A program made the translations under genes and the position numbers. Source: Curvibacter lanceolatus ATCC 14669 (GTDB lineage: Bacteria; Pseudomonadota; Gammaproteobacteria; Burkholderiales; Burkholderiaceae_C). Taken from it: a stretch of DNA of 64,000 bases. The stretch lies in NCBI RefSeq assembly GCF_000381265.1, contig NZ_KB906282.1:1-64000 (forward strand), written 5' to 3'. This document shows, piece by piece, positions 8,366-10,179 of this stretch. Positions within the stretch are counted from its first letter, which is position 1. Each line of letters starts with the position of its first letter. The notes under the pieces were generated by a model that had not been told where the DNA came from, searched no databases, and worked only from the letters and a program-made list of their open reading frames with translations.

Positions 8366-8793
8366 CAAAACGGCTTGACCACCACCAGCACAACCGCCAC
8401 CAGCATCAGCAGCACCGGAGCCTCATTGAACCAACGGAACCAGACGTGCCCGCGCCGGTTCTGATTGTTCACAAACTGCCTGAGCAGCTTGGCGCAGACA
8501 TGGTGGTAAGCCAGAACCAACAGCACCACGGTCAGCTTGGCATGCATCCAACCGTTGCCCGGCCCGCGCCCGATGCCATAGCCCAGCCAGAGCACTGCCC
8601 CCAGGGCCAGCGCAGGAACGGCCAACAGGGTGGTGAATCGCAACAATTTGCGAGCCATCAGCAACAAGCGCTCCCGCTCTGCCACAGAGCCCACCGGCAC
8701 CATGGCCAAATTGACAAAAATGCGAGGCAGGTAAAACAGACCAGCAAACCAGCTGGCCACGAAGACGATGTGAAAGGCTTTGATCCAGAGCAT
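8365..8793 (-). CDS. hemJ: Protoporphyrinogen IX oxidase HemJ
   Basis: 142-aa four-helix membrane protein of the HemJ/CopD group, which oxidises protoporphyrinogen IX to protoporphyrin IX in heme synthesis. The start MLWIKAFHIVFVASWFAGLF matches the canonical HemJ N-terminus including the conserved His; the longer reading upstream has no such match. HAKL and the central WLGY segment also fit. A promoter places transcription exactly at this ATG. It is followed in coupled fashion by the VanZ-like gene, and hemB, another heme gene, lies upstream in the opposite direction. Confidence 0.9.
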   Translation of the reverse strand: MLWIKAFHIVFVASWFAGLFYLPRIFVNLAMVPVGSVAERERLLLMARKLLRFTTLLAVPALALGAVLWLGYGIGRGPGNGWMHAKLTVVLLVLAYHHVCAKLLRQFVNNQNRRGHVWFRWFNEAPVLLMLVAVVLVVVKPF

Positions 8794-8799
8794 GACCCC

Positions 8800-8827
8800 A
8801 GTGTAGAGCCAGATCTTTGCCTGTCCA
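8800..8827 (-). promoter_or_regulatory. hemJ promoter, apparently leaderless
   Basis: Minus strand: -35 TGGACA (8822-8827), 16-bp spacer, -10 TACACT (8800-8805). Counting seven bases from the -10 gives +1 at 8793, the A of the hemJ ATG. No Shine-Dalgarno precedes the ATG, consistent with a leaderless mRNA. Confidence 0.5.
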
Positions 8828-8875
8828 GAAGCCCCGGGCAAACCAGTGCCAAGCCTTGCTTTGCAGCAGGTGGGC

Positions 8876-8902
8876 AAAAAAAAACCCGGCCATGGGCCGG
8901 GT
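8876..8902 (-). terminator. Rho-independent terminator of the candidate sRNA
   Basis: Minus strand: CCCGGCC (8895-8901) / GGCCGGG (8885-8891) stem with a 3-nt loop and an extra T-A/A-T pair, followed directly by nine T. It cannot serve hemB (opposite strand) and lies 83 bp upstream of the hemJ start. Confidence 0.85.
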
Positions 8903-8974
8903 CAGGAAGCCTTTTTGCTGTCACACATCAAGGCACCCGCTCAGGGAGGAAAAGCGGGGAGCAGCAAGCTGCCC
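8876..8974 (-). ncRNA. Candidate small regulatory RNA with anti-Shine-Dalgarno loop
   Basis: Predicted ~99-nt transcript. It begins about 8974 (GGGCAGC...), folds a small GCAG-CTTG-CTGC hairpin, then a second hairpin CCCGCT (8953-8958) / AGCGGG (8936-8941) whose 11-nt loop reads UUUCCUCCCUG (8942-8952), complementary to Shine-Dalgarno sequences. It ends in a strong terminator: CCCGGCC-ATG-GGCCGGG stem with nine U (8876-8884). Its own promoter is at 8981-9009. hemJ downstream has a separate promoter, so this is not simply the hemJ leader. No ORF of note is inside. I do not recognise a known RNA family. Confidence 0.55.
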
Positions 8975-8980
8975 AGGGGT

Positions 8981-9009
8981 AATTTAGCAAAGTCACAGCC
9001 CAAACTCAA
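8981..9009 (-). promoter_or_regulatory. Promoter of the candidate sRNA
   Basis: Minus strand: -35 TTGAGT (9004-9009), 17-bp spacer, -10 TAAATT (8981-8986), predicted +1 at G8974. The rest of the gap to hemB (9010-9141) is AT-rich (about 39% GC by count), holds an 8-bp inverted repeat CAGGAAAT/ATTTCCTG (9011-9018, 9123-9130) and a direct repeat TTTCGTCA (9035-9042, 9116-9123), and presumably includes the hemB promoter. Confidence 0.55.
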
Positions 9010-9102
9010 GCAGGAAATTCAGATTTACACGACATTTCGTCAGAAAAAAGCCGCGTATCGCCACGAATTACCGGATATCCCAAAATTAATTGATATTTAT
9101 GA

Positions 9103-10179
<1,077 letters not shown>

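Follow-up and report, generated by a model that had tools for sequence, protein, structure and literature searches.

Within the window, the 64,000 nt of Curvibacter lanceolatus ATCC 14669 DNA that were analysed, the minus strand carries at 8974-8876 a member of the catalogued small RNA family anti-hemB (RF02837). Our preferred reading, which we consider likely, is that this is a trans-acting sRNA whose exposed loop masks ribosome-binding sites, and that an ancestral link to envelope stress has been rewired to housekeeping control in the window's bacterial family. When the window was run with cmscan against 4227 Rfam families, the only match over cut-off was RF02837 at 8960-8876 (67.9 bits, cut-off 49.5), and its E-value of 9.6e-14 means that it is not a chance hit. 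The first-pass annotation had called the RNA unannotated. That is right for the raw sequence, but not in the sense of an uncatalogued kind of RNA, since the family is in Rfam.

The putative promoter consists of a -35-like TTGAGT (9009-9004, minus strand; TTGAAA in several relatives), a 17-nt spacer and a -10-like TAAATT (8986-8981), with six bases between the latter and the predicted 5' end at G8974. This pair is absent from the output of a simple sigma-70 scan of 8600-9300. The predicted 99-nt RNA folds into four hairpins: H1 at the 5' end (8974-8959); H2 (8958-8936), a stem exposing the CU-rich loop UUCCUCCCU at 8951-8943; H3 (8934-8909), whose loop carries GUGUGACAGC; and an intrinsic terminator (8903-8876) comprising a hairpin at 8903-8883 and nine T at 8884-8876. 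The minimum free energy is -45.2 kcal/mol (z -3.62), and none of 200 dinucleotide shuffles was as stable. The promoter sequence, the G at the predicted start (8974), the CU-rich loop, the nine-U terminator and the 99-nt length that had been claimed were all confirmed on the minus strand. These signals suggest that the RNA is transcribed in C. lanceolatus, independently of its neighbours and as far as the intrinsic terminator, whose U-tail would be a likely Hfq site. Downstream and co-directional is a hemJ-like gene (8793-8365, minus strand; TIGR00701, 110.5 bits, cut-off 138.05). On the other side lies the divergent hemB gene for porphobilinogen synthase (9160..10179, plus strand, start codon chosen by eye; NF006762, 517.1 bits, cut-off 297).

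Comparison with relatives gave good evidence for this structure. An alignment was made of 45 of 47 sequences (L014 and L043 were left out, and the window stands for L015). RNAalifold found 18 pairs in it, 15 of them with changes on both sides. In a recount, 92.3% of the cells were paired against a shuffled mean of 82.8%, and 101 cells were doubly changed against a shuffled mean of 31. None of 500 shuffles was as high on any of five measures; since the rows share ancestry, shuffling overstates covariation, and sliding the partners, a control that preserves relatedness, cut the paired cells to 28-53%. All six pairs of H1 had double changes. All but two bases of H1 fall outside the Rfam match on its 5' side, so the RF02837 model seems truncated there, and this covarying hairpin outside the model is a new observation. 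H3 is missing from the 45-sequence consensus because the lineages align badly there; by eye, an H3-like stem is present in most single folds of the 45 rows. A second alignment, of 25 of the 29 loci from the window's family, had H2 and H3 mostly invariant and no H1 in the RNAalifold consensus. The comparison across relatives that had been proposed thus found the stems and the CCUCCC loop kept, with compensatory changes. It supports the idea of a separate trans-type sRNA whose CCUCCC loop is conserved, CTCCC occurring within the first 35 nt in 112 of 116 loci.

Other parts of the RNA are lineage-specific. TGACAGC is found in H3 in 22 of the 29 loci of the window's family but in none of 19 loci from the rest of the order or 68 from the rest of the class (here the GTDB class, in which betaproteobacteria rank as an order). 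The terminator-loop site TCCCCTTT occurs in 13/19 loci of the rest of the order, 2/68 of the rest of the class and 0/29 of the window's family; under a looser rule, a CU run in the terminator part is found in 16/19, 38/68 and 1/29, respectively. The H3 loop of the window family's RNAs is common to named Variovorax, Ramlibacter, Polaromonas, Rhodoferax and other loci, from which the window's family appears to be Comamonadaceae.

RF02837 was over cut-off in 45 of 60 genomes (the window's own counted), in 14 of 274 genomes of a class sample and in 11 of 299 genomes of a phylum sample. In the class sample 124 of the 274 genomes matched at E <= 0.001, and all 13 genomes that matched at E <= 1e-6 in the phylum sample belong to the window's class. 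Three of 14 control genomes, E. coli included, also matched at E <= 0.001 below cut-off, which shows that an isolated weak match may arise by chance.

RNAs of this family have been detected in Burkholderia. The consulted part of PMC5688073 identifies ncS04 of Burkholderia cenocepacia as anti-hemB, 105 nt long, with Northern blot and 3' RACE data and a citation for Hfq binding; ncS04 was unchanged in all seven qPCR conditions tabulated there. According to the excerpted text of PMC4603805, ncS04 lies between BCAL0264 and BCAL0265 in the orientation <- -> <- and co-purified with Hfq. The relevant portion of PMC3521395 lists the anti-hemB of B. pseudomallei as a trans-acting RNA, and a review (PMC6321483), in the section consulted, gives Salmonella RybB as the predicted homologue of Bc7. 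Bc7 is probably ncS04, because Rfam uses the name 'Burkholderia RNA 7' and Hfq co-purification is common to both. The identifier RF02837 was not found in the literature, in a search mostly of papers available without subscription. The window RNA resembles ncS04/Bc7 in its match to the covariance model, the divergent hemB and its length (105 nt versus about 99 nt predicted here). It differs in having hemJ and not engB as its other neighbour, in the promoter TTGAGT-N17-TAAATT, in its extra conserved H3 loop and in lacking the TCCCCTTT site.

Neighbouring genes were sought by tblastn within 1.5 kb of the RNA or to the contig end, and NCBIfam models confirmed EngB, PolA and HemB in representative cases. 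Within the window's family (29 loci), divergent hemB occurs in 26 cases, hemJ downstream in 25 and engB or polA in none; at the window itself tblastn found neither polA nor engB. In the rest of the order engB adjoins the RNA at all 19 loci (16 convergent downstream, three upstream co-directional), and divergent hemB is present at 15. The rest of the class was supplemented with a second set, the next 40 class matches by score, for which most extra copies in one genome and G223 were passed over. Among the resulting 68 loci hemB was never found; engB is convergent at 39 and polA upstream at 37. One or both of polA and engB were found at 56 (52 in the usual orientation) and neither at 12. As the covariance search did not use neighbours, the presence of these genes independently supports the weaker class matches as genuine. 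The RF02837 cut-off misses many class members with polA or engB adjoining. In four of the 68 loci (L214, L220, L233 and L242) the RNA is reversed relative to both polA and engB. No hemJ was found downstream in the rest of the order (0/19) or of the class (0/68).

Named loci were taken from the 80 listed of at least 120 pattern matches, 65 of those 80 having the stem and terminator. Among these 65 listed loci engB is nearby in 34, including Burkholderia ambifaria, Cupriavidus, Pandoraea, a Gallionellaceae, Nitrosospira and Ectothiorhodospira mobilis. The significance earlier attached to the placement between two heme genes is not supported, since the neighbours change between lineages. What is new is that engB adjoins the RNA in the order outside the window's family, and that in the rest of the class polA and engB mark the slot occupied by ErsA and Spot 42.

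RybB is a sigma-E sRNA, and the sigma-E promoter consensus is GGAACTT-N15..17-TC. We scanned 95 nt upstream of the model (18 loci for the order group, L043 being left out with less than 80 nt upstream) for at least six of the seven bases of GGAACTT, a spacer of 15-17 and then TC plus an A in the last two of five positions. Such a site precedes 1/29 loci of the window's family, 16/18 of the rest of the order and 51/68 of the rest of the class, against shuffled means of 0.16, 0.20 and 0.60 and 0/115 on the reverse strand; the rule was written after many of the sequences had been seen, so these counts are a pattern more than a test, with the shuffles and reverse strand as a safeguard. It is missed by two order loci and 17 class loci. 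No GGAACTT-N15..17-TC site was found in the 95 nt before the window RNA. The motif goes with the RNA and not with hemB, because 51 class loci have it where hemB does not adjoin. Sigma-70-like sites had the opposite distribution (20/29 in the family, 2/18 in the order, 12/68 in the class; shuffled means 1.2, 1.0 and 2.9). Those of the family are TTG...TANNNT pairs with a 16-18-nt spacer, for which the shuffled maximum was 4.

The named loci complicate this picture. The sigma-E-like site is found in 26 of the 65 listed, namely 1/26 with the family's H3 loop and 25/39 of those lacking it. Both loop and site are absent at 14 loci, among them Burkholderia ambifaria, Burkholderia sp. TSV86, a Caballeronia, three Cupriavidus, a Gallionellaceae, a Sulfurimicrobium and a Nitrosospira. 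In Paraburkholderia and Pandoraea, GAAACTT precedes TATCATA and can be read either way. By their sequence, the GGAACTT-type sites would be true sigma-E promoters. A further new finding is that the sigma-E-like promoter present across much of the range of RF02837 gives way to a sigma-70-like one in the window's family. By eye, loci of Hydrogenophaga and similar ones (L055, L060, L086, L113, L121, L172) have a TGTCA...TGACAGG palindrome, perhaps a regulator site, ahead of the RNA.

RpoE itself (TIGR02939, cut-off 236.15) scored over cut-off in all six genomes taken from outside the window's family (298-328 bits) and in six of eight inside it (249-257 bits). The window's own genome has an RpoE over the cut-off; the best scores in G015 and G021, both in the window's family, are 100 and 47 bits. 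The lower scores would fit a loosened sigma-E control in that family, the sample being small and hand-picked. Over much of its range, then, the RNA has a sigma-E-like promoter and an adjoining engB, often with polA opposite in the rest of the class. In the window's family engB does not adjoin, hemJ is usual and the promoter is sigma-70-like, and therefore the RNA has probably moved from envelope-stress to housekeeping control.

The slot beside engB raises the question of kinship with two known sRNAs. Spot 42, a sigma-70-transcribed and CRP-repressed RNA, occupies the order polA-spf-yihA(engB) in E. coli K-12, a slot that RF02837 often has in the rest of the class; it belongs to another RNA family, scoring 122.8 bits to RF00021 and giving no RF02837 match at E 1. 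ErsA of Pseudomonas likewise lies beside engB with polA. We compared 23 engB loci from the family of a genome carrying RsmY. Thirteen matched RF01719 (Pseudomon-1/ErsA) over cut-off at 81-134 bits, L330 was below it (40.1 bits) and nine had no such match. Only one of the 23 matched RF02837 (21.7 bits, E 0.81), and ErsA was rejected as a sequence member of RF02837. Conversely, 8700-9200 of the window had no RF01719 match up to E 1. In front of ErsA lies a sigma-E-like promoter (for example TGAACTT-N16-GTCAGA), and its terminator loop is CU-rich; by eye the RNA body differs, with no H2 CUCCCUGAG hairpin, and the two are separate Rfam families. Because slot and promoter are common and the RNA bodies differ, we propose kinship by position and not membership.

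ErsA is described, in the excerpts consulted, as sigma-22 dependent, Hfq-assisted and pairing at the algC ribosome-binding site, and the consulted part of a review (PMC8395346) calls it a functional orthologue of Spot 42. A tentative extension, which we rate as possible but short of an even chance, is that anti-hemB, ErsA and Spot 42 descend, each in its own lineage, from a single sRNA gene beside engB that was driven by the envelope-stress sigma factor; the betaproteobacterial version would have kept sigma-E in most families, and the window's family, with its lower RpoE scores, would have switched to a housekeeping promoter. Of this, the tie between ErsA and Spot 42 has been published before; the inclusion of anti-hemB is new. 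No statement tying anti-hemB to ErsA was found in a literature search mostly of papers available without subscription. ErsA is not mentioned in the consulted part of PMC5688073, and a review covering both RNAs draws no link between them in the part consulted.

What does the RNA act on? CCUCC is the core of the anti-Shine-Dalgarno sequence of 16S rRNA. The constant H2 loop (U)UCCUCCCUG contains CCUCC, and UUCCUCCCU is the likely pairing seed. The loop would most likely repress translation of several mRNAs by pairing at their GGGAGG-type ribosome-binding sites. The example of published CU-loop sRNAs makes it plausible that the CCUCCC loop masks Shine-Dalgarno sites. For Bordetella S17, compensatory mutations reported in the consulted part of a preprint (PMC11722255) fit pairing at ribosome-binding sites, and for ncS27 the relevant section of PMC5688073 reports a growth effect reversed by antisense of the CU region, which also fits such pairing. 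S17 and the RF02278 double-hairpin/toxic sRNAs (ncS27, ncS03) have, as here, a CU-rich anti-ribosome-binding-site loop and an intrinsic terminator, but the window RNA scores only 23.1 bits to RF02278 (cut-off 50) and has four hairpins, not two. The CcsR or cuckoo RNAs belong to Alphaproteobacteria, and their CCUCCUCCC motif is a point of comparison. Trp leader, rnk, Hrs1 and SorX were rejected as identities, all matches being below cut-off.

A strict 9-nt complement of the loop, CAGGGAGGA, was sought before ATG in five genus genomes and found 10 times (two in the window's genome) against none for the backwards pattern, a control that also reverses the ATG. One site precedes a 36-aa ORF common to G000, the window's own genome, and G002; of those common to G005 and G006, one precedes short ORFs and one a 184-187-aa ORF. 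No site in the five genomes was common to more than two close species. The complement of the second loop, GCTGTCACA, occurred before ATG 31 times against 13 backwards in the five genomes (13 against 3 in the window's own), and only L288/L289 paired as likely orthologues. Porins were tried as targets of the loop and rejected. Of 30 porin loci, nine had starts that looked right (MKK... or LKK...), and their pairing energies were -6.2 to -11.8 kcal/mol, compared with a mean of -12.3 for 41 window ORFs. This negative result is weak, because the gene calling was crude and got most of the remaining porin starts wrong, as well as many ORFs of the background. No convincing conserved target was thus found among the CAGGGAGGA and GCTGTCACA complements before ATG in five genomes and the 30 porin loci.

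The Rfam name implies action on hemB, by antisense or by Shine-Dalgarno pairing. Divergent hemB occurs at the window and in 41 of 76 loci, and on the opposite strand in 51 of the 65 usable named loci among those listed, and hemB is the predicted target of Bc7 in the consulted section of a review (PMC6321483). But hemB is not a universal neighbour, being within 1.5 kb at 0/68 rest-of-class loci; the RNA starts 186 nt from the hemB start codon, which makes overlap with a short 5' UTR unlikely; and the whole RNA pairs with the hemB start region worse than most shuffles do (192/200 as good or better). We consider action on hemB very improbable. Pairing with hemJ was no better than chance (76/200 shuffles as good), nor was that of the loop alone (50/200 for hemB, 113/200 for hemJ). 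Heme regulation by pairing was rejected on these grounds, and the link to heme made in the first-pass annotation is not supported.

Somewhat less remote, though still improbable, is that the RNA is a leader or attenuator of hemJ, starting at 8974 and mostly stopping at the hairpin before the gene. Consistent with this, hemJ is co-directional downstream in 25 of the family's 29 loci, and the promoter of its own that the first-pass annotation had given it is a weak match: TGGACA-N16-TACACT at 8827-8800 is marginal (one found against a shuffled mean of 0.2) and stops 7 nt short of the likely hemJ ATG (8793). There is also a sub-threshold Trp-leader match to the window RNA (23.2 versus 41 bits). 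At 16 of the 19 order loci outside the window's family, however, the RNA points at a convergent engB, not at hemJ. Some read-through into hemJ is possible. The RNA probably acts on neither hemB nor hemJ in particular.

A free-standing sRNA that masks ribosome-binding sites, the reading we prefer, could also have relatives in the same genome. Three further RF02837-like loci score 36-43 bits there: C8:194518-194587 (L049), C29:59700-59763 (L050) and C26:37357-37426 (L051). The loop of L050 is UUUUCCUCCCUGAG, the same as in the window RNA, on a different stem, and all three are possible sibling sRNAs. It is conceivable, if on balance doubtful, that the window RNA is one of several such CU-loop RNAs with redundant targets, so that its deletion would have no visible effect; L049-L051, however, score below the RF02837 cut-off of 49.5 bits. 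Such redundancy would be an addition to the preferred explanation rather than an alternative. Weak matches of this kind also occur in genomes G002, G003 and G007. Multi-copy RF02837-like RNAs are found in G230:C33 (four), G322:C3 (four) and G568 (five), and in two copies each in G209, G321, G165 and G207; in class genomes they are mostly tandem, about 150-340 nt apart.

The comparative result argues against the heme-based family name. If the tentative extension to ErsA and Spot 42 is true, a core envelope-stress sRNA of many Betaproteobacteria carries a misleading heme name in Rfam. The comparison also offers two testable ideas on RF02837, RpoE as its regulator and a kinship with the ErsA/Spot 42 locus, and it provides an apparent example of a conserved sRNA that switched sigma factor from one bacterial family to another.
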